Below, in pieces: positions 12,371-21,524 of a stretch of DNA of 64,000 nt. The first letter of the stretch is position 1; each line of letters opens with the position of its first letter. The notes under the pieces are model-generated. The model was not told the DNA's origin and made no database searches. It saw nothing but the letters and a program-made list of their open reading frames with translations. The position numbers were made by a program, and so were the translations under genes. The DNA comes from SAR92 clade bacterium H231 (GTDB lineage: Bacteria > Pseudomonadota > Gammaproteobacteria > Pseudomonadales > Porticoccaceae): assembly GCA_025153775.1 (NCBI GenBank), contig JAOALC010000001.1, positions 558,001 through 622,000 on the forward strand, given 5' to 3'.

Positions 12371-12470
12371 AGTAAAACTGTAACCAATTTTTTGTAGTAC
12401 CCAGTTGCAAGACAAATCCTGCGGGGGGACCTTATATTAGCGATTGGATCAGTGCTCACTCGGCAAACAG

Positions 12471-12497
12471 CGACAAAGTATTGACATTTGACGACAA
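12471..12497 (+). promoter_or_regulatory. Candidate AraC-type operator overlapping the promoter of its own gene
   Basis: The segment contains CGACA-N5-TTGACATTT-N3-GACAA, with three GACA elements starting at 12472, 12483 and 12493 (11- and 10-bp spacing, one helical turn). The TTGACA (12481-12486) also serves as a consensus -35 with TAGTAT at 12503-12508 (16-bp spacer) 34 bases before the AraC gene. The same spaced pattern is found at 20208-20234. Sequence match seen; binding by the AraC protein inferred. Confidence 0.55.
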
Positions 12498-12541
12498 AAG
12501 CCTAGTATTCCTTTCAATTATGTAATGTATAGGCAAAAAAA

Positions 12542-13552
12542 ATGGCAATGGTGCGAGCCGCAGTAATGGCGGGCTTTGACAATCAGGTGCGGCACCTCAA
12601 GGCCGACCCCGAAAAAATATTGCGGGACAACGGGTTTACATCCGGTTTTTCCTCTGAATGCGATCCAGATGAATTGCTGCCCTATGATCGGATCGAGCAG
12701 TTGTTGCAGGCTGCGGCTGATGCTACCCACTGCCCTCATTTTGCCGCTATGCTGGGTATTCAGCAAAATATTAATCTTCTGGGGGTGGTCGGCGATTTAA
12801 TGTTGCAATCCAACGATGTGCGCACCGCACTGCTAGAGCTAGTTGATCATTTATTGCTGCATATTCAAGGGCCTATTAATGGCGCATTGCAATGTTTTGG
12901 CAATCAGGCCTACCTCAGTTACCACAACGCCTCCCAAACCCAGCTTCGCAAGCAGTCAGATGAATTGGCTATGGCTCACAGTATTATTATTATGCAGGCA
13001 CTCTGTGGCCTAGACTGGAGACCCACCAGAGTCTGTTTTTGTCACCAGGCTCCTGAAAACCAAAGACCCTATCAAAAGTTATTTAAAGCGCCTGTGTTCT
13101 TTGGTCAGGAGCGGACTGAGATGGTTTTTCCAAAGCACTGGTTGAATGCGCCCATTATTCAGACAGACCCAGCTCTGAATATGATTCTGAGTACTCATAT
13201 CAATCAACCTGAGCAAAATATACCGCGCAATTTCTGTGATGAGGTGGTCTGCCTGATCAAAGACTTACTACCGCTGGGGCCCTGTGGTTTAGAAACTGTG
13301 GCAGACCGGTTAGCCGTGCATCAGCGCACCTTGCAGCGCACGCTAAAGGAAGAGGGCAGTTCATTCTCCGATTTACTGGAGTCCGTTCGCCAGGAGATAG
13401 CCACAGAGCGTCTGCGCAACTCTAATATATCCATTATCCAGCTCTCAGATTACCTGGGCTATGCAGACAATACGGCATTTACCCGCGCTTTTAAGCGCTG
13501 GTTCGGCAGCACACCCAGAGAGTGGAGAAAAACTGTCAATAGCGGCGGCTGA
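12542..13552 (+). CDS. AraC-family transcriptional regulator (PF12625-type sensor domain)
   Basis: The 336-residue protein has an N-terminal arabinose-binding-like sensor domain of the OruR/ArgR type (LRDNGF...LLPYDRIEQLLQAAADAT...GVVGDLMLQSNDVRTAL) and two C-terminal helix-turn-helix motifs (LETVADRLAVHQRTLQRTLKEEG; IIQLSDYLGYADNTAFTRAFKRWFGSTPREWR). It sits between tRNA-Cys and tRNA-Leu, an unusual place. Its own promoter carries a three-element GACA site that recurs in front of the fatty acid desaturase / HMGR pair, suggesting autoregulation and lipid-gene targets. Confidence 0.92.
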   Translation: MAMVRAAVMAGFDNQVRHLKADPEKILRDNGFTSGFSSECDPDELLPYDRIEQLLQAAADATHCPHFAAMLGIQQNINLLGVVGDLMLQSNDVRTALLELVDHLLLHIQGPINGALQCFGNQAYLSYHNASQTQLRKQSDELAMAHSIIIMQALCGLDWRPTRVCFCHQAPENQRPYQKLFKAPVFFGQERTEMVFPKHWLNAPIIQTDPALNMILSTHINQPEQNIPRNFCDEVVCLIKDLLPLGPCGLETVADRLAVHQRTLQRTLKEEGSSFSDLLESVRQEIATERLRNSNISIIQLSDYLGYADNTAFTRAFKRWFGSTPREWRKTVNSGG

Positions 13553-13556
13553 GGCG

Positions 13557-13586
13557 TTCCCATTGGGGATAATGATCATGTATACT
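13557..13586 (+). promoter_or_regulatory. Candidate promoter of the tRNA-Leu transcript
   Basis: TTCCCA (13557-13562) and TATACT (13581-13586, preceded by TG) are 18 bp apart, followed by GCCGCCCC, a GC-rich discriminator typical of stable RNA genes. Transcription from here would cross both 144-bp repeats before reaching tRNA-Leu. Prediction by eye. Confidence 0.5.
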
Positions 13587-13639
13587 GCCGCCCCTCAGCA
13601 AACCGCTGCTGATAAAAGTCCATCACAGTCTGTTTAGAC

Positions 13640-13783
13640 ACCCGGGTGGCGAAATTGGTAGACGAAAAGCAGGATGCTCAAGTGTCGCGATAGGCAGGAC
13701 GCCGGTAGCGACCGCAACGCCAGTCTGAAAGACTGGTAGAACAATCAGTTCATATAGATGATGCAAAGCCCACCTTGCTAGAC
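13640..13783 (+). repeat. 144-bp direct repeat, copy 1, starting with a tRNA-Leu 5' fragment
   Basis: The unit starts with the first part of tRNA-Leu (CCCGGGTGGCGAAATTGGTA and on to GACG, 24 bases), then continues with 119 unrelated bases: a small GCAGGATGC hairpin, a GTCGC...GCGAC stem and a strong CCAGTCT-GAA-AGACTGG hairpin. It differs from copy 2 at two positions. It lacks the anticodon arm, T arm and 3' acceptor, so it is not a tRNA gene. Confidence 0.9.
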
Positions 13784-13927
13784 GCCCGGGTGGCGAAATT
13801 GGTAGACGAAGAGCAGGATGCTCAAGTGTCGCGATAGGCAGGACGCCGGTAGCGACCGCAACGCCAGTCTGAAAGACTGGTAGAACAATCAGTTCATATA
13901 GATGATGCAAAGCCCACCTTGCTAGAC
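13784..13927 (+). repeat. 144-bp direct repeat, copy 2, starting with a tRNA-Leu 5' fragment
   Basis: Second unit, in exact 144-bp register with copy 1 and with the intact tRNA-Leu gene that begins at 13928. It ends CACCTTGCTAGAC directly before the tRNA. The first 25 bases equal the 5' end of tRNA-Leu. The arrangement resembles, in mirror image, the E. coli tyrT repeats that carry the 3' end of tRNA-Tyr. Confidence 0.9.
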
Positions 13928-14014
13928 GCCCGGGTGGCGAAATTGGTAGACGCAACGGACTTAAAATCCGTCGGTAGCAATACCGTGCCGGTTCAAGTCC
14001 GGCCCCGGGCACCA
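13928..14014 (+). tRNA. tRNA-Leu(UAA)
   Basis: The 87-nt class II tRNA has acceptor arms GCCCGGG/CCCGGGC, the D-arm TGGCGAAATTGGTAGAC typical of tRNA-Leu, anticodon stem ACGGA/TCCGT with loop CTTAAAA (anticodon TAA), a long variable arm, T arm GGTTCAAGTCC and encoded CCA. It is the third copy of the 5' sequence shared with the two upstream 144-bp repeats, and the only complete one. Position after pgsA and tRNA-Cys matches leuZ of E. coli. Confidence 0.96.
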
Positions 14015-14046
14015 TCTGCAGCTTTACACATAGGATTACAGAGCCC

Positions 14047-15255
14047 TTATTGGGTAAGAAATTTACCGTTTGCCCATTGACCTCGGAAAATCCTTCCATC
14101 GGGATAGGTTAATGAGCCCTCACCATGCTCCTCATCATCTTTGAATTCACCAACATATTTTTTCCCATCTGGCCATGTGTAGGTACCCCAGCCATGCCTT
14201 TTGCTATTTTGGAACTCCCCAACATATTTGTGGCCATTAGCTGATTCAAATACTCCTTGGCCACTTATCTGGCCAGCCTTAAATTGGCCAACGAATGTGG
14301 TGCCGTCCGCCAAAGAATAGGCGCCGCGTCCATGAACCTTATCATCCATCCAATGGCCAACATATTTTCTTCCATCAGCCCAGTTGTAGCTTCCATCGCC
14401 ATTGACACAATCGCCACTTACACAACCTATCAATGAATTTTGCCCAGAAGATGTCCCGTTGGAATAGGAATCAAATGCAGCAAGCCTCTCAGGCCCGCTT
14501 GGGTGGCTGGAACTTTGCCCAGACCTAAGCTCAGTTGAATCTGCACCTATGAATAATATGACTTGTCTGGCGGCCAACTCATCATAACCAGCTAAGTTAA
14601 TTAGTTTGAGTCCTAATCTATCGGCTTCTGATTCCTGATCGACTGAGTAAGTTAATCTCCCCGCCTCTCGACCAGACGCATAACCATCCTCGACAGCGTC
14701 CTCAATAACATCATCTAATACTGCGTCACTCACACCAAGACCCGCAGCAATGGCGCCCACTAAGATGCCAGACAGCAACCCAGTTGTAGCGCCCATTATT
14801 TCGCTATTCACTATATCTTCCATTCCATGATTCAGGATATGGTGGCTCATCTCGTGGGCTAATATAAAAGCGACTTCATCGTCTGATTTAGTATATTTAA
14901 ACACTTCGCTATGAAACGTAATGTCGCCCGCTGGTGTTATATATGCGTTAAAGTTTTCATCATCAACTACATTCAGTGTCCAACTACTACAGGACGATTC
15001 GAGCCATTTTTCGCCATTTTCAAGGCAGGCTGTTTTGGCGTGAGGTTCTAGTCGGCTATAGATCCTTGATAGAACAAGATCTGGCTCCTCCTGAATATCC
15101 TGAGGAGTTCGCTCTATTTGACTGGCTATTTCATTGCGCTTGATCTCAAGAGTCGCCTCGTTAAACTGGGGCATATACTGCGTAGGAGAGCATCCAATGA
15201 CTGCAGATGAAATAACAATAACAAAGCATCGATACAGTATTCGTTCAAAACTCAT
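14047..15255 (-). CDS. M48-family metalloprotease lipoprotein with C-terminal MORN repeats
   Basis: The 402-residue protein (ATG at 15255 with GAGG upstream) has a lipoprotein signal ending VIGC. Residues around 130-150 carry the zinc protease motif HEMSHH inside FILAHEMSHHILNHG, followed by a small Gly/Ala-rich hydrophobic segment and the third ligand region ESEADRLGLKLINLAGYD: a BepA/LoiP-like M48 peptidase. The last third has about five MORN repeats (Y-x-G-x-[FW]-x5-G-x-G pattern, e.g. KYVGEFQNSKRHGWG). M48 lipoproteins act in envelope quality control; the MORN tail could bind membrane or partner proteins. The fusion is unusual. Confidence 0.88.
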   Translation of the reverse strand: MSFERILYRCFVIVISSAVIGCSPTQYMPQFNEATLEIKRNEIASQIERTPQDIQEEPDLVLSRIYSRLEPHAKTACLENGEKWLESSCSSWTLNVVDDENFNAYITPAGDITFHSEVFKYTKSDDEVAFILAHEMSHHILNHGMEDIVNSEIMGATTGLLSGILVGAIAAGLGVSDAVLDDVIEDAVEDGYASGREAGRLTYSVDQESEADRLGLKLINLAGYDELAARQVILFIGADSTELRSGQSSSHPSGPERLAAFDSYSNGTSSGQNSLIGCVSGDCVNGDGSYNWADGRKYVGHWMDDKVHGRGAYSLADGTTFVGQFKAGQISGQGVFESANGHKYVGEFQNSKRHGWGTYTWPDGKKYVGEFKDDEEHGEGSLTYPDGRIFRGQWANGKFLTQ

Positions 15256-15298
15256 TAACAATCGCCTCACATCAAATTACCAGGAAGTGTCGGCAATA

Positions 15299-15326
15299 AT
15301 CATATAGTAAAGGCGTAGTTCTGCAA
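15299..15326 (-). promoter_or_regulatory. Candidate promoter of the M48-MORN gene
   Basis: On the minus strand TTGCAG (15321-15326) and TATGAT (15299-15304) are 16 bp apart, 44 bases upstream of the ATG at 15255. Prediction by eye. Confidence 0.4.
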
Positions 15327-15521
15327 CATTGTATAGATGATGAACAACACGTTGCTTTTCTGAATGGTCACTGAGCCTTACGCACAGACTCTTTAGCCTA
15401 GGTAGTGTTTTTAGTTTGCGCTGCTGTGATTTGAAGCTGCCTCTCGACATTTGTATTCGGCAGAGCTATTTGCAATTACTTGGCACTATAGCCCTGAGTA
15501 ATGGCAGGTCATTTTATTGGT

Positions 15522-15550
15522 TTGAAGCGTTGGCATTTAGCTCATATACT
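15522..15550 (+). promoter_or_regulatory. Candidate promoter of the PhyH-family gene
   Basis: TTGAAG (15522-15527) and TATACT (15545-15550) have the ideal 17-bp spacer. Transcription would start near 15557, which supports the ATG at 15627 as the start of the oxygenase gene. Apart from this and the divergent promoter, the gene-free stretch 15256-15626 shows nothing else recognisable. Confidence 0.5.
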
Positions 15551-15626
15551 CAGGCTCATTAGAAAAGACTCCAGGGTGCAGAGCTCACTACCGGGGCGAA
15601 TGCACCACAATAATAAGAGTGATTTT

Positions 15627-16799
15627 ATGGTTCAGGACATTTCCAAATCTATCGAAGCTTGTGCCGCCTACTATGGCAAAGACGCAGGCGCAGTTCGGCA
15701 ATATCTTACTCAGGGGCAGGAGCGTGCATTGGCACTGCCCAATCGCGGGCCGCTTCGGTTTGACCAACAGGGTGCTATTGAGCAAGATATTCTCGATGCC
15801 TACTCCACCTATGGTTTTTATATTTTTGAGAAGGCACTGAGTCAGGAAGAGGTGAAAGACCTCGAAGATGATCTAGACCGATTGAGGGATAATTTCCCCA
15901 CTACCATGGGGGCAGCCACAGATGCCCAGGGGCGTCCAGCTCTGGGTGCGGACAGTCGGGCTATGGCACTGCAGTGGGCCAAACCACTATCAGATCCTCT
16001 GGGGGGCAGCCAGATCGCCAATGGCCGCCACCAGGTAAAACTTTTTGAGCCCGTGCCCGGGGATAATGCGCCTCAGGTTACGCCGTTTTATCTGGCGGGA
16101 TCATTGCAGTACTCAGCGGCCTGTTTGCGCGCCTATGGTCATCCTGGGCTGTTAAAAATGGCCGAGGCTATAAATGGTCAAGACTTTACCCCATTCCATG
16201 AGGGACTATTTATTAAAGATGCTGGTTTGGGTGCGGCCGTGTCCTGGCATCAGGACGGGGATACCCACTGGGACAACCCAGACTTTGATGAAGATATTCA
16301 TGGCTTTAACTTTATGGGTCAGGTCTACGGCAGCACGGCTGTCAATGGGGTCTGGGTAGTGCCCGGCAGCCATAAGCAGGGGCGGTTAGATATAGTCAAA
16401 ATGGTTGAACAGGCCGGCACTGAACGCCTACCTGATGCCGTGCCCATTATCTGTAATCCCGGTGATGTGGTTATTAATAATCGGCAGCTATTGCACGGTT
16501 CCTTTGCCAATACAGGTTTTGAAACCCGGGTCTCGGTTAACTTTGGTTTTCATCGCCGGTCCTCAGTGCTCAATGTAAAGGGAGCTGGTATCCATGCGGA
16601 GGCTGCTACCTTTGATGATGCCTTTATCAAAGAGCGCTCCAGAGTAATTGGGCTGGCCATTGCAGCCAGAAAGCAGCGCTTTCCCGAAGAGCAGCCCTAT
16701 GAGTATGCACCAGATATTAAAGCCGGAGAAAATCCTGTTTGGGACCAAAGCCAGCTGGCTTCCCTGAAGGACTACAACCTGATGGACTTGAGTATTTAA
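15627..16799 (+). CDS. Phytanoyl-CoA dioxygenase (PhyH) family protein
   Basis: The 390-residue protein belongs to the Fe(II)/2-oxoglutarate PhyH family: the metal motif H-x-D in SWHQDGDTHW, a distal His in QLLHGSFANTG and the oxoglutarate Arg in FETRVSVNFG. Family members hydroxylate varied small molecules, so the substrate cannot be read from sequence. The start at 15627 (MVQDISKSIEACAAYYG) is downstream of a good promoter; the frame is open further upstream but without a ribosome site. The serine hydrolase follows by 21 bases, suggesting cotranscription. Confidence 0.88.
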   Translation: MVQDISKSIEACAAYYGKDAGAVRQYLTQGQERALALPNRGPLRFDQQGAIEQDILDAYSTYGFYIFEKALSQEEVKDLEDDLDRLRDNFPTTMGAATDAQGRPALGADSRAMALQWAKPLSDPLGGSQIANGRHQVKLFEPVPGDNAPQVTPFYLAGSLQYSAACLRAYGHPGLLKMAEAINGQDFTPFHEGLFIKDAGLGAAVSWHQDGDTHWDNPDFDEDIHGFNFMGQVYGSTAVNGVWVVPGSHKQGRLDIVKMVEQAGTERLPDAVPIICNPGDVVINNRQLLHGSFANTGFETRVSVNFGFHRRSSVLNVKGAGIHAEAATFDDAFIKERSRVIGLAIAARKQRFPEEQPYEYAPDIKAGENPVWDQSQLASLKDYNLMDLSI

Positions 16800-16820
16800 C
16801 AGCTTTTCCGGGAGCGCAAA

Positions 16821-18035
16821 ATGATTAAAAAAGGATTGGCCATTAGCCTTGCCATACTGGTACTGGTTGCAGCATCTCTCTGGTATTTTTTTAGTGATCG
16901 GATAGAGCGGGTGCAGATAGTCAGCAGTTTATTTACTGGCGTAGAGCAGATAGATAACTTTAATCGAATGCACCAGATGTTCCCAGTGACTGCAATGCCT
17001 GCTGCCGATCAGCCATATAGCTTTCAGGTAGCGGAGTCAGTGCCGCTGCCAACTGAATTTAGCTACGGGGGCAAGCGGGTAGAGACCGAAGAATTTTTGG
17101 CGCGCACAGATACTGGTGCTGTGCTGGTGGTTAAAGATGGCGCTATTCAATTTGAGCAGTACTGGCGCAGCGGAGGGCAAACCCAGACCTGGCTATCTAT
17201 GTCGGTGGCCAAAAGTTTTATTTCAGCGTTAATTGGCATAGCGATTGAGCAGGGCCATATCCGCGATATTAATGACCCTATCACCGACTATGCGCCGGAG
17301 CTGGCAGGCTCGGCCTATGACAATGTTGCAATCAAGGATATTTTGCAGATGTCTTCTGGCGCCTCTTGGAATGAGGACTATGGCGACCCGGAGTCCGATA
17401 TTAATCGCTTTGCCCGGGTTTTTGCTCTGGGTGGTTCGATGAATAAGTTCGCCACCACCTTGACGAGGGAGATGGCGCCCGGCACCTATAATCGCTACAA
17501 CAGCACAGATACTCAGGCGCTGGGTATGCTGCTGACCGCAGCTACTGGCCGCAGCATTACAGAATACATGATTGAAAATTTGTGGCATCCCATGGGTGCA
17601 GAGCATACAGGCTATTGGCTTACCGATGCCGATAGCATGGAAATGGCCTTTGGGGGGCTAAATATTACTGCCCGTGACTACGCCAAGCTGGGTGAGTTAT
17701 ATCGTTTGGGTGGTGCCTTTAATGGCCAGCAAATTGTGCCAGCAGACTGGGTGTCTGCCTCTATAGTTGCAGATGCCCCACATCTGATACCGGGCGATAA
17801 TCCAGCTTCAGACTGGCCCCTGGGCTATGGCTACCAGTGGTGGATTCCCGAGGGCATCGCTAGCGAGTTTATGGCCATTGGTGTGTACAACCAGTTTATC
17901 TATATAGCCCCAGAATCCAATACAGTGATTGTTAAGCTATCGGCCAATAGCGCCTACGGCACGCCGGAGGATAAGGACGCCTCCAGCGAGTTTGAGTCCA
18001 TAGAATTTTTCCGCGCAATTGCCGGCCAGCCCTAG
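16821..18035 (+). CDS. Serine hydrolase, beta-lactamase / class C-like family
   Basis: The 404-residue protein has an N-terminal signal-anchor (about residues 5-25), then a penicillin-binding-fold domain with the S-x-x-K motif in MSVAKSFISALIG and a Y-x-N-like motif in RYNSTDTQALG; the C-terminal region has YGYQWWIP as in family VIII esterases and 6-aminohexanoate dimer hydrolase relatives. It should act in the periplasm on an ester, amide or peptide bond. GGGAG precedes the ATG. It is probably in an operon with the PhyH gene. Substrate unknown; a resistance role is not implied. Confidence 0.85.
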   Translation: MIKKGLAISLAILVLVAASLWYFFSDRIERVQIVSSLFTGVEQIDNFNRMHQMFPVTAMPAADQPYSFQVAESVPLPTEFSYGGKRVETEEFLARTDTGAVLVVKDGAIQFEQYWRSGGQTQTWLSMSVAKSFISALIGIAIEQGHIRDINDPITDYAPELAGSAYDNVAIKDILQMSSGASWNEDYGDPESDINRFARVFALGGSMNKFATTLTREMAPGTYNRYNSTDTQALGMLLTAATGRSITEYMIENLWHPMGAEHTGYWLTDADSMEMAFGGLNITARDYAKLGELYRLGGAFNGQQIVPADWVSASIVADAPHLIPGDNPASDWPLGYGYQWWIPEGIASEFMAIGVYNQFIYIAPESNTVIVKLSANSAYGTPEDKDASSEFESIEFFRAIAGQP

Positions 18036-18059
18036 GCCTCTGTCCAAATCCTTGCTCAG

Positions 18060-19136
18060 TTATTGGTTGGCTTTAATAAAGTCAGCCAGTATCTCGGCGA
18101 GCTTCTCTGCCTTAGCCCATTGGAAAAAATGGCCGCCACCTATATTGGTGTGGGGCTGATCCTTGGTTCCCGGCACCTTAGCTAGCCAGACTTTTTCAAA
18201 GCCATCGGTGACAGGGTCATTGCCTGCACCAACGCATAAAAACGGTTTTTTGAACTTGGCAAAGAACGCCCAAGCCTTTTTCTGTGCTTCCAGAGATTGA
18301 TCAGGAATAGTGGGCACCTGACTAGGCATAGCTCTGGGGCCCATTTTGTAGGCCGGCGTTGGGAAGGGCGCCTCATAGGCCTTGGTGAGTTGGGTGCGGA
18401 AAGGGGAGATATTGCGCAACCCTATATGGCCCATGAACAACTCCAAGACAATGGATAGCTTGCTGCGCTGCTCCATCATAGAGGAGGCAATAACACCTGC
18501 AGGTAAATCCGGGTTTTCCCAGGTGTATTTCTGCCAGTAGGCAAATAGATCGACACCAGAATCTTTGCCAATGCCCTTCATTTTATTAAGCTGTTTCTGC
18601 ATTGAAAACAGATTGAGCTTTAATGGGCTGGCACGAAAGGCTTTAACTTTTGCAATTATGCTCTCGGACACATCGGGGTTATAGGGCAAGCCTGTATTGC
18701 CAATGGCCACGCGATCAAAGCGGTCGCCATTATCCGCAACCATACGCAAACCAATCAGCCCACCCCAATCCTGGCCAAAAAAGGTTAGCTTAGTAAAGTC
18801 ATTTTGCACCAGCCACTGGTTCATCCAGTCCACCTGGCGCTGATAGCTGTAGTCTTCTCTAGCCGCTGGCTTGTCAGATTTTCCATAGCCAGGCAGATCC
18901 GGGGCTATGACTCTTATACCTGCTTTTACCAGATGAGGAATCATTCGGGCATAGAGATAGCTCCAAACCGGCTGCCCGTGCATGCACAGAATCACCGGAC
19001 CATCTTTTGGGCCTTCATCGATATGGTGGATTCTGAGATCACTGCCATCATGGGTTTTCACCACTGTGTAATGGGGCTCGAAAGGGTAGTCTTTGATATT
19101 TGCGAATCGGCGATCTGGAGTTCTTAGAATTTTCAT
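18060..19136 (-). CDS. Haloalkane dehalogenase-like alpha/beta hydrolase
   Basis: The 358-residue protein matches the HLD-I branch (DhlA/DhmA type): oxyanion motif CMHGQPVWSYLY, then PDLPGYGKSDKP, the nucleophile Asp followed by a halide-binding Trp in FFGQDWGGLIGLR, an acidic residue in VGAGNDPVTDG and the catalytic His in GGGHFFQWA. HLDs convert haloalkanes to alcohols; some relatives are epoxide hydrolases, but Asp-Trp-Gly-Gly after the strand favours a dehalogenase. It is about 50 residues longer than typical HLDs (295-310). It faces the serine hydrolase gene convergently. Confidence 0.8.
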   Translation of the reverse strand: MKILRTPDRRFANIKDYPFEPHYTVVKTHDGSDLRIHHIDEGPKDGPVILCMHGQPVWSYLYARMIPHLVKAGIRVIAPDLPGYGKSDKPAAREDYSYQRQVDWMNQWLVQNDFTKLTFFGQDWGGLIGLRMVADNGDRFDRVAIGNTGLPYNPDVSESIIAKVKAFRASPLKLNLFSMQKQLNKMKGIGKDSGVDLFAYWQKYTWENPDLPAGVIASSMMEQRSKLSIVLELFMGHIGLRNISPFRTQLTKAYEAPFPTPAYKMGPRAMPSQVPTIPDQSLEAQKKAWAFFAKFKKPFLCVGAGNDPVTDGFEKVWLAKVPGTKDQPHTNIGGGHFFQWAKAEKLAEILADFIKANQ

Positions 19137-19174
19137 AGTGACTGCCTTTGACTTAGGTTTGTTATTTGAAGCAC

Positions 19175-19205
19175 ATCATAACAAAATTGGCAGTATTCAT
19201 GTCAA
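19175..19205 (-). promoter_or_regulatory. Candidate promoter of the dehalogenase gene
   Basis: On the minus strand TTGACA (19200-19205) precedes TTATGAT (-10 region within 19175-19181) with 18-19 bp spacing, about 40 bases before the ATG at 19136. It contains TTGACAT but not the full three-GACA pattern found at 12471 and 20208. Confidence 0.45.
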
Positions 19206-19218
19206 TAGATTTTCGCCG

Positions 19219-20163
19219 CTACTGATTTTCAGATAAAACCGGACGCAAACCTCTCCAGCTAAGCTTATAAATAGGGGCTCCCATGGCATTCATCACTGGG
19301 CGGATACGGTTGAAAAGTCGGCGATACTGATAAAATGGCACCCAGGGAAACAGATGGTGCACAGCATGGTAGTTCTGGTAGCCCCACAGCAGAGTTGTCA
19401 GATGGGAAAGGGGGCCGGGAATCAGAATAATCGAGGTGTTTAGATACCGCTCGGTGACTCTGTGAGGTCGGTGAACAATATAGGCAAACAGATAGACCAC
19501 TACAAAGGTGCCAGCCAGGCCACTAGCGACCAGAGCAATCAAACCCTCAACCCAGCGCCCCTGAATGCCTGCATCGCCAAAGGCAGACAACAGAGCAAAG
19601 GGCAGTGCGCGCAGTCCAATAGCTAGTGCAATTTCCAGCACCATGACAATATTCTGTCTGGCGGGAGCCTGATCCCAGCGGTCGGCCATATAAGTGGTGT
19701 ATTGGCCGGCAATCGCGGTCCAGCAGGACTTCAGCATAGAGCCAAGCGAGCTGACAATATGCGCAGAGTATTGATCCGGGTCTTTGCTACCATTGTTGAC
19801 ATTGCGATGATGTTTAAGATGCTCGTAGCGATGAACAACCAGTCCGGTCAGGAGAATTGTGGCTGCCAGATAACCAATACCATCATTGAGCCAACGCAGA
19901 GACTTTATATTGCCGCTGATGCAATAGTGCACAGCCTCGTGCAGCACGGTGTAGGCGGCATAGATCAGTATGGCCATCAGGGGAATCGCCAGAAGCAGGG
20001 ATAATTGTTTAAAGATCACCAGAAACAGCAGTGCCCAATAGCCTGTAAAGGCTACCAGGCCAAGAAATACAGTAGGCCAGGCTAAGGCATAGCGATACTC
20101 CCGGGCGCAGACCAGAGCCTGTTGATTTAATTGTACTTTTTGCTGTGAATCTAAAATTTCCAT
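19219..20163 (-). CDS. Membrane fatty acid desaturase
   Basis: The 314-residue membrane protein has the three histidine boxes of the di-iron desaturase/hydroxylase family: HEAVHY (about residue 75), HRYEHLKHHRN (about 110-120) and a C-terminal NYHAVHHLFPWVP, with four or more hydrophobic segments. The family introduces double bonds or hydroxyl groups into acyl lipids or carotenoids. The box order fits PF00487. It is divergent from HMG-CoA reductase, and a candidate AraC-type operator lies 45 bases before its start. Confidence 0.88.
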   Translation of the reverse strand: MEILDSQQKVQLNQQALVCAREYRYALAWPTVFLGLVAFTGYWALLFLVIFKQLSLLLAIPLMAILIYAAYTVLHEAVHYCISGNIKSLRWLNDGIGYLAATILLTGLVVHRYEHLKHHRNVNNGSKDPDQYSAHIVSSLGSMLKSCWTAIAGQYTTYMADRWDQAPARQNIVMVLEIALAIGLRALPFALLSAFGDAGIQGRWVEGLIALVASGLAGTFVVVYLFAYIVHRPHRVTERYLNTSIILIPGPLSHLTTLLWGYQNYHAVHHLFPWVPFYQYRRLFNRIRPVMNAMGAPIYKLSWRGLRPVLSENQ

Positions 20164-20207
20164 GGCACCTATACTAGCTAGTTTTACCAGCCAGACTTAG
20201 CATAGTA

Positions 20208-20234
20208 CGACAGCAAGTTGACATTTCATGACAA
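20208..20234. promoter_or_regulatory. Second copy of the CGACA-N5-TTGACATTT-N3-GACAA operator
   Basis: Identical fixed positions and spacing to the site at 12471-12497 in front of the AraC gene; the GACA elements start at 20209, 20220 and 20230. It lies between the divergent desaturase (start 20163) and HMG-CoA reductase (start 20358). On the desaturase side a TACTAT -10-like hexamer (20202-20207, minus strand) abuts the site, as expected for a class II activator position. Confidence 0.55.
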
Positions 20235-20357
20235 TGCCGAGTTTGGCAGAATGTTATCTGCTGTCTAGCCAACCCCATTGGCATAAAGCGGTGGACTAGA
20301 TAGGTGGATTCTGGGATATTCGTGATCCCACAAAAACAATAAAAAAGAGCCCCATTT

Positions 20358-21524
20358 ATGTCTGACCGAATCCCAAGAGATAGCGCCAATGATTACACCG
20401 AAGAGATGGCTCACAATCGCCGTGATTTTATCCGTGAGAAAACATCCACCTCACTGAATCATGTTGGTCACTACTCTGTTGACCCCGAAACCACTGCCGG
20501 TAATATTGAAAACTTTATTGGCGTGGCTCAGGTGCCCATGGGTTTGGTTGGACCATTGTTAGTCAATGGTGAGCATGCCAATGGTGATTTCTATATGCCC
20601 ATGGCCACCAGTGAAGGCACCTTGATCGCTAGCTATAATCGCGGCGCTCGCCTGTTGCGAGAATCTGGCGGAGCCAAAGTCACAGTGGTTGATGATGCTA
20701 TGCAGAGGGCGCCTGTATTTATATTTGAAGATGCCCGCCAGGCCCGCGATTTTGGCCTCTGGGTCGAAGACAAATTCGACGAGATTGCTGCCCAGGCGCA
20801 AACCACCACCAGATCTGGCAAGTTGCGCAATATTCAGCAGTTCGCTGCCGCCCGTATGCGCTACCTGCGCTTTAATTACACCACTGGTGATGCAGCAGGG
20901 CAGAATATGGTGGGCAAGGCTACCTTTGTCGCCTGCGAATGGATTGTGGCCAACTACCCGGGTATTCAGCGTTATATGCTGTCTGGCGCCATGGATACAG
21001 ACAAGAAGCACTCGCATCTCAATACATTGCACAGCAGGGGCAAGCGAGTTATTGCCGAAGTGACAATTCCAGGTGAGCTGTTGCAGAAAACCATGAATAT
21101 CTCGGCCGAGGCCCTGTACAAGGCTAGATCCATCAGCCAGATCGGCTCCTTTATGGCTGGTTCAAACAATACTGGCGCCCATTCTGCCAATGGTATTACC
21201 GCAGCATTTATTGCCACAGGTCAGGATGTGGCCAATGTAGCAGAGTCATCGGCGGCAGTTGTTTACGCGGATCTGGATGAAGAGGGCAACTACTATCTGT
21301 CTATTACAATCCCTTCGCTTATTATTGCTACTTTTGGTGGTGGCACAGGTTTGGCCACGCAGCAGGAATGTTTGAAAATGATAGGCTGTGATGGCGCCGG
21401 CAAGGTGCATAAATTGGCGGAGATTATTGGCGCCACTGTGTTAGCTGGAGAGGTGTCATTAATGAGTGCGGTACTGGCCGGCGACTGGGTAACCAGCCAT
21501 GATGCCCTGGGCCGCAACCGTTAA
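20358..21524 (+). CDS. Hydroxymethylglutaryl-CoA reductase, class I-like
   Basis: The 388-residue protein shows all class I HMGR landmarks: ENFIGVAQVPMGLVGPL, catalytic Glu in PMATSEGTL (about E86), the cofactor motif DAAGQNM, catalytic Lys in MDTDKKHS, catalytic Asp in GQDVANVAES, and a terminal His in VTSHDALGRN. HMGR makes mevalonate from HMG-CoA using NADPH, the committed step of the mevalonate isoprenoid pathway, which most gammaproteobacteria lack (they use MEP). It lacks the eukaryotic membrane anchor. No other mevalonate-pathway gene is in the window. Confidence 0.92.
   Translation: MSDRIPRDSANDYTEEMAHNRRDFIREKTSTSLNHVGHYSVDPETTAGNIENFIGVAQVPMGLVGPLLVNGEHANGDFYMPMATSEGTLIASYNRGARLLRESGGAKVTVVDDAMQRAPVFIFEDARQARDFGLWVEDKFDEIAAQAQTTTRSGKLRNIQQFAAARMRYLRFNYTTGDAAGQNMVGKATFVACEWIVANYPGIQRYMLSGAMDTDKKHSHLNTLHSRGKRVIAEVTIPGELLQKTMNISAEALYKARSISQIGSFMAGSNNTGAHSANGITAAFIATGQDVANVAESSAAVVYADLDEEGNYYLSITIPSLIIATFGGGTGLATQQECLKMIGCDGAGKVHKLAEIIGATVLAGEVSLMSAVLAGDWVTSHDALGRNR

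Follow-up and report, generated by a model that had tools for sequence, protein, structure and literature searches.

Within a 64,000-nucleotide stretch of the genome of SAR92 clade bacterium H231 (contig JAOALC010000001.1, positions 558,001 to 622,000; hereafter the window), the promoter region of an AraC-family regulator gene and the intergenic region between a membrane desaturase gene and an HMG-CoA reductase gene share a 27-bp motif, CGACA-N5-TTGACATTT-N3-GACAA. The regulator, here simply AraC, combines an N-terminal Arabinose_bd domain (PF12625, 108.6 bits against a cut-off of 27.6), which places it in the VirS/PF12625 branch, with a C-terminal double helix-turn-helix (HTH_18, PF12833, 69.6 bits against 33.6). 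The desaturase gene (PF00487, 105.2 bits against 29.7) is followed by a gene for an alpha/beta hydrolase. An initial annotation of the window had proposed that AraC acts through the motif on its own gene and on membrane-lipid or isoprenoid genes.

The two copies of the motif, both on the forward strand, lie where they had been annotated, agree at all 19 fixed positions and carry their GACA elements at the reported spacings of 11 and 10 bp. With up to 3 mismatches allowed, the window holds 2 matches where 0.02 are expected, and none of 100 shuffled windows held 2. The whole genome (G000; 2,931,580 bases in 7 contigs, 97.8% complete) contains 2 exact matches, none with 1 or 2 mismatches and 2 more with 3, one within a coding frame and the other between the 3' ends of a convergent gene pair, and a control pattern written backwards gave no match in it. 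A random spread through the genome, named at the outset as what would speak against the proposed regulation, was looked for and not seen, leaving the idea unrefuted. Another genus contributed near matches in G015, G025, G033 and G059, but all four fall in one coding frame and were set aside, as was a coding site with 2 mismatches common to G000 and G078.

Comparison across the genus ties the motif to the regulator. In a sample of 50 genomes, AraC orthologues (expectation value, E, up to 1e-60) were found in seven, namely G000, G062, G058, G075, G078, G097 and G068, at 100, 77, 65, 52, 50, 49 and 46% identity, respectively, and all seven carry the motif about 70 bp before the gene at 17–19 of the 19 positions. 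Desaturase homologues (E up to 1e-40) occur in nine genomes. The four that also encode AraC (G000, G062, G075 and G068) all have the motif at the desaturase locus with 16–19 positions matching, as against a best of 12–13 in the five AraC-less genomes (G070, G079, G071, G052 and G055; desaturase identity 53–55%), an association with a Fisher p of 0.008, which like the other p value given here is an indication only, as the genomes are related and not independent. A looser pattern derived from these 11 sites, applied to 15 genomes, returned 11 matches without mismatch, exactly the 11 sites, and none at that stringency in 8 AraC-less genomes; at 2 mismatches its matches were roughly equal in number to those of its backwards control, which makes it unsuitable for counting weak sites. 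Copy 1 is made less surprising by the fact that TTGACA is the -35 consensus, but neither the shuffles nor the conservation over 7 araC and 4 desaturase promoters of diverged genes is compatible with a chance likeness between two promoters, a reading of negligible probability that the sequence comparison with relatives refutes. The same comparison (7/7 araC promoters; 4/4 against 0/5 desaturase promoters) supports the proposal of an AraC-family direct-repeat site, of autoregulation and of the desaturase as a target.

Alignment of the 11 sites with their flanks shows that the 27-bp operator, although present as first described, is part of a larger unit of 37 bp, in which two half-sites of 16 bp follow each other in tandem at a period of 21 bp, with the consensus TYGGCAnnnnnCGACA-N5-TTGACATTnnnYGACA. 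Of the three GACA elements, one is a box of half-site 1 and the other two are boxes of half-site 2; the additional box, upstream of the original 27 bp, is weaker than the rest. Within each of the 11 sites the half-sites are alike at 8–11 of 16 positions, and when the half-site-2 profile is slid along the alignment, its best non-zero offset is -21, scoring 6.5, with the next at -8.3 or lower. Such spacing would place both half-sites on one face of the DNA, and the arrangement is consistent with a tandem direct-repeat operator of the AraC/XylS type with its period of about 21 bp. Direct repeats of light-responsive MerR proteins (CarH/LitR) had been considered in view of the 11-bp spacing and were dropped, with no search for such a regulator made, once the sites proved to be tandem repeats of 21-bp period linked to this AraC.

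Table 1. Coordinates of the operators, promoter elements and genes (window positions unless a locus is named).
Feature	Position	Strand	Remarks
araC operator, 37-bp unit	12460..12496	+
araC operator, 27-bp motif	12471..12497	+
araC operator half-site 1, TCGGCAAACAGCGACA	12460..12475	+	alignment of 7 orthologues; CGACA in its second half
araC operator half-site 2, TTGACATTTGACGACA	12481..12496	+	includes -35 TTGACA (12481..12486)
araC -10, TAGTAT	12503..12508	+	N16 from -35
AraC-family regulator, 336 residues	12542..13552	+	Arabinose_bd (PF12625) and HTH_18 (PF12833)
Alpha/beta hydrolase, haloalkane dehalogenase subfamily	18060..19136	-	82 bp downstream of desaturase, same strand
Membrane desaturase (PF00487), predicted target	19219..20163	-	operator in 4/4 AraC-bearing, 0/5 AraC-less genomes
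Likely desaturase -10, TAGTAT	20171..20176	-	7 nucleotides before ATG
Poor desaturase -35, TAAGTC	20194..20199	-	assigned from position, 17 bp from -10
Desaturase operator, 37-bp unit	20197..20233	+
Desaturase operator, 27-bp motif	20208..20234	+
Desaturase operator half-site 1, TTAGCATAGTACGACA	20197..20212	+	half nearest desaturase; 3-bp overlap with -35 position
Desaturase operator half-site 2, TTGACATTTCATGACA	20218..20233	+
Likely own promoter of reductase, TGGACT-N17-GATATT	20292..20320	+	by eye
HMG-CoA reductase, probable bystander	20358..21524	+
CHASE2-cyclase/divergent-gene operators, in tandem with AraC orthologues	L077 4304..4330; L079 3538..3564; L076 3379..3405

The placement of the operator differs between the two promoter types, while its spacing to the -10 is fixed at both. 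At araC, half-site 2 begins with the consensus -35 TTGACA in 7 of 7 orthologue promoters, bearing out the annotated overlap, and the -10 at N16 is TAGTAT in six and TGTTAT in G062. At the desaturase, each of the four genomes has a hexamer 7 nucleotides before the ATG (TAGTAT, TAGTAT, TACTAT and TAGGCT) at the -10 position, the operator edge being 20, 21, 20 and 20 bp away from it, respectively, and the proximal half-site overlaps the -35 position, a geometry that fits class II activation. The element originally named as the desaturase -10, a TACTAT inside the operator and 45 bp from the start of the gene, is rejected because it is not conserved in the three relatives, which read TATCAT, TTTTAT and TTGTTT. 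The short distance from the -10 to the ATG, seen in the window at 20161-20176, implies a leaderless desaturase mRNA, one predicted to begin with its start codon or immediately beside it.

From the observed sequences, tandem structure, co-occurrence and conserved spacing we consider it likely that AraC binds both operators, represses its own gene and activates the desaturase gene, with a ligand as the switch. AraC would bind each 37-bp operator as a dimer. At araC, binding would cover the strong promoter TTGACA-N16-TAGTAT, and autorepression is the simplest reading because the operator covers that consensus -35. At the desaturase the operator is reversed, and its proximal half-site ends on the poor -35 TAAGTC, 20 bp from TAGTAT; class II activation is suggested by this poor -35, the 3-bp overlap and the fixed distance from operator edge to -10. 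The switching signal would be a bound ligand, which may be a lipid or else a substrate of the desaturase/hydrolase pair. That AraC instead activates both promoters, or represses both, is unlikely given that the operator covers the consensus -35 in 7 of 7 araC promoters but merely touches the poor -35 of the desaturase; polarity is nevertheless read from geometry only, and one study reports that a ligand of VirS, an AraC-family regulator of Mycobacterium tuberculosis, raises expression of both virS and its target operon (PMC13234193).

The isoprenoid arm of the original proposal, in which HMG-CoA reductase is a further target, finds no support. Reductase genes are present in 12 of 12 genomes examined, and an operator lies within 400 bp in three of them (G000, G062 and G075), each with the desaturase adjoining, so that the intergenic region common to both genes is what speaks for a site serving the reductase, alone or along with the desaturase. 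Against this, which we hold to be improbable, stand the nine reductase genes without an operator within 400 bp, four of them in AraC-bearing genomes (G068, G058, G097 and G078), and the gene's likely own promoter, TGGACT-N17-GATATT, which recurs at identical spacing in 5 of the 12 genomes (G000, G062, G075, G058 and G097), including two (G058 and G097) with no operator at the reductase; in G068, moreover, a DUF3604 gene intervenes and adjoins the operator in place of the reductase. Because the AraC-positive, desaturase-negative genomes G058, G078 and G097 all have the reductase without an operator, the reductase is probably a bystander, though the operator may exert a side effect on it in the window's species. 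The case illustrates that adjoining an operator need not mean being its target.

The order of desaturase and hydrolase genes is the same in 4 of 4 AraC-bearing genomes with a desaturase, making the hydrolase a possible operon partner. The desaturase stays below the cut-offs of both of its best NCBIfam models (CrtR, 65.8 against a cut-off of 475; DesA, 22.6 against 500), and no solved structure matched at E up to 1. The substrate may be a lipid or, because a PF00494 protein sits between CrtI- and CrtY-like frames in G000 (names assigned by eye), a carotenoid; no PF00494 protein was shown in the desaturase-bearing genomes G068 (74% complete) and G070 (90%).

The association of operator and regulator extends beyond the genus. 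Among 390 genomes of the order, ten have an AraC match at E up to 1e-60, and apart from the window's own genome only G269, from another family, is close (E 7e-142); it has TGACATCATGTTGACATTTGGTGACAA before its AraC gene. The nine weaker matches in the other eight genomes (E 1e-61 to 1e-70) show no such operator by eye, and some of those genomes have other, looser TTGAC/GACA repeats. Three AraC loci from Woeseiaceae, at 37–41% identity, include two with enough upstream sequence (L077 and L079), and both carry the operator before AraC, at 28.1 and 24.5 bits with a 27-bp profile of SAR92 sites only. All three loci have a further site, at 25.4, 16.5 and 16.5 bits, flanked by a CHASE2 cyclase gene on one side and a divergent gene on the other; in each locus the divergent gene has a TAAAAT 20 bp away from the edge of the operator. 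Four unrelated loci from the search that gave these three score at most 12.2. The sites before the orthologues of G269, L077 and L079 come from families not used in the first profile. In L088 and L089, loci of AraC relatives from another family, a looser tandem, TTGACATTTGG/TATCATTTGG, lies upstream with its elements about 21 bp apart by eye.

A genome-wide search with a model of 16 sites covered 18 genomes, with 150 candidates scored of the several hundred to 2,443 in each. Twelve matches reach E 1.4e-5 or better, all of them members of the training set: 8 araC promoters (7 from the genus and that of G269) and 4 desaturase promoters. They are followed, in G269, by a site that precedes a thiolase-type gene next to DUF3604 (E 0.0018; L095 598-636) and, in G068, by one ahead of a methylamine-dehydrogenase-like operon (E 0.0048; L094 10063-10087); a weaker G068 site before a ribF-like gene (named by eye; E 0.05) was left as chance or undecided. 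Among the scored candidates of 10 AraC-less genomes there was no match better than E 0.16. In the window's own genome the third match among those scored reaches only E 3.2; araC and the desaturase gene are therefore predicted to form the core regulon, with the hydrolase behind the latter.

A different regulator, for example another PF12625 protein, might bind the sites with AraC merely a target, and the window's genome encodes 8 PF12625 proteins. The G068 methylamine-dehydrogenase-like cluster has a PF12625 regulator of its own at its end, 27% identical, to which the weaker site there probably belongs, indicating that site preferences overlap within the family. We nevertheless regard this alternative as very improbable, since the site accompanies this AraC across three families and is missing from the genes of the paralogues examined. 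In a survey of four genomes, 40 PF12625 matches gave 30 with loci, comprising 1 without a frame, 4 orthologues and 25 paralogues; none of the 25 paralogues has the operator before its own gene, the best score being 14.5 (L152) against 38.7–47.0 for the orthologues, whose sites are themselves part of the profile. The proteins divide in the same way: N310 and T311, which we place at the beginning of the second recognition helix, the part that reads the DNA, are present in all 11 orthologues and absent from all 13 paralogues compared, R290 and Y304 behave likewise, and 8 of the 11 orthologues, all but the three from Woeseiaceae, are free of peptide-pattern bias in this comparison.

Several observations weigh against the proposed AraC switch or weaken its support. 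Co-occurrence of araC and the desaturase is on its own modest (4/7 against 5/43, p 0.015, again among related genomes that are not independent), and G058, G078 and G097 carry the site at araC only, with no recognised target of AraC. The desaturase -10 is TANTAT in three of the four genomes and TAGGCT in G068. Box A, the additional box of half-site 1, is weak, with the exact TYGGCA in 7 of 11 sites, and when only the 11 positions outside the 27 bp are used, offset -21 ranks third (-1.9), offset -11 scoring 1.8 on the known repeat and the remaining offsets averaging -11.8. The search patterns and the model R1 were built from these very sites, making their own scores circular, so that evidence can be drawn only from the absence of matches elsewhere and from the independent families; the three Woeseiaceae loci, in turn, were found by peptide patterns that include part of the recognition helix.

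Operators of this design are familiar. Escherichia coli AraC occupies tandem half-sites with a 21-bp period at araBAD I1/I2, and the proximal half-site reaches a few bp into the -35; the SAR92 system differs in that there is no sign here of a distant looping site and in that its operator is used in both orientations. The best NCBIfam match of the regulator is QhpR (NF049968, E 6.7e-60), but at 202.6 bits it falls below that model's cut-off of 250, and unlike the case of QhpR no amine dehydrogenase lies beside AraC in the window. Its nearest solved structure, matching over the whole length, is VirS (8rcx, residues 3–330, E 7.4e-30), described as regulating virS and the mymA operon (PMC9044949, PMC13234193). 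On that account VirS resembles the SAR92 AraC in belonging to the AraC family and in regulating its own gene together with a single operon related to lipids, whereas its phylum and target are different; the comparison covers structure and regulated genes.

In Pseudomonas aeruginosa, SphR is reported to bind two direct repeats of TGNCCSNNRNNSNCC, 6–8 bp apart (PMC3900636), much as TGACATTnnnYGACA occurs twice here, 6 bp apart, in the same frame and with the same period, and its regulon is likewise small. The consensus bases differ, the SphR ligand is sphingosine, and the comparison covers the sites of the two regulators. CdhR, which we group with GbdR and related P. aeruginosa regulators, has GGTCGC half-sites, a 15-bp spacer and a 34-bp footprint and shares the 21-bp period (PMC5806209), but it is described as a class I activator that binds upstream of the promoter, whereas the SAR92 site reaches the -35. 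Among the titles and abstracts listed from a partial collection of open-licence papers, none describes this regulator.

The sequence evidence suggests that the proposed self-regulating AraC switch of the desaturase is a new instance of a well-known switch type. With it, a marine clade of high abundance gains a concrete predicted triple of regulator, operator and target, and one branch of the PF12625 AraC regulators a half-site consensus. A broader view, which we put forward tentatively as possible but doubtful, is that AraC, through one operator used in opposite orientations, represses itself and activates its target, and that operator and recognition helix have been kept across three families while the targets were swapped, with the desaturase mRNA leaderless. 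The targets would then be the desaturase in the SAR92 clade, the thiolase-type gene beside DUF3604 in the family of G269 and the divergent CHASE2-cyclase/TPR promoter in Woeseiaceae. If the swap is true, it would be a small natural case of a regulator changing its job while keeping its binding site; if the mRNA is leaderless, the regulator would control a transcript beginning at its start codon.

Two further features of the neighborhood may be recorded. DUF3604 genes adjoin the operator in G068 and follow the HMG-CoA reductase gene in the window. Downstream of araC, a frame at 13623-14099 encodes two near-identical copies of about 60 residues (LRLPISPPGRLARWALHH...), which are probably translated repeats.

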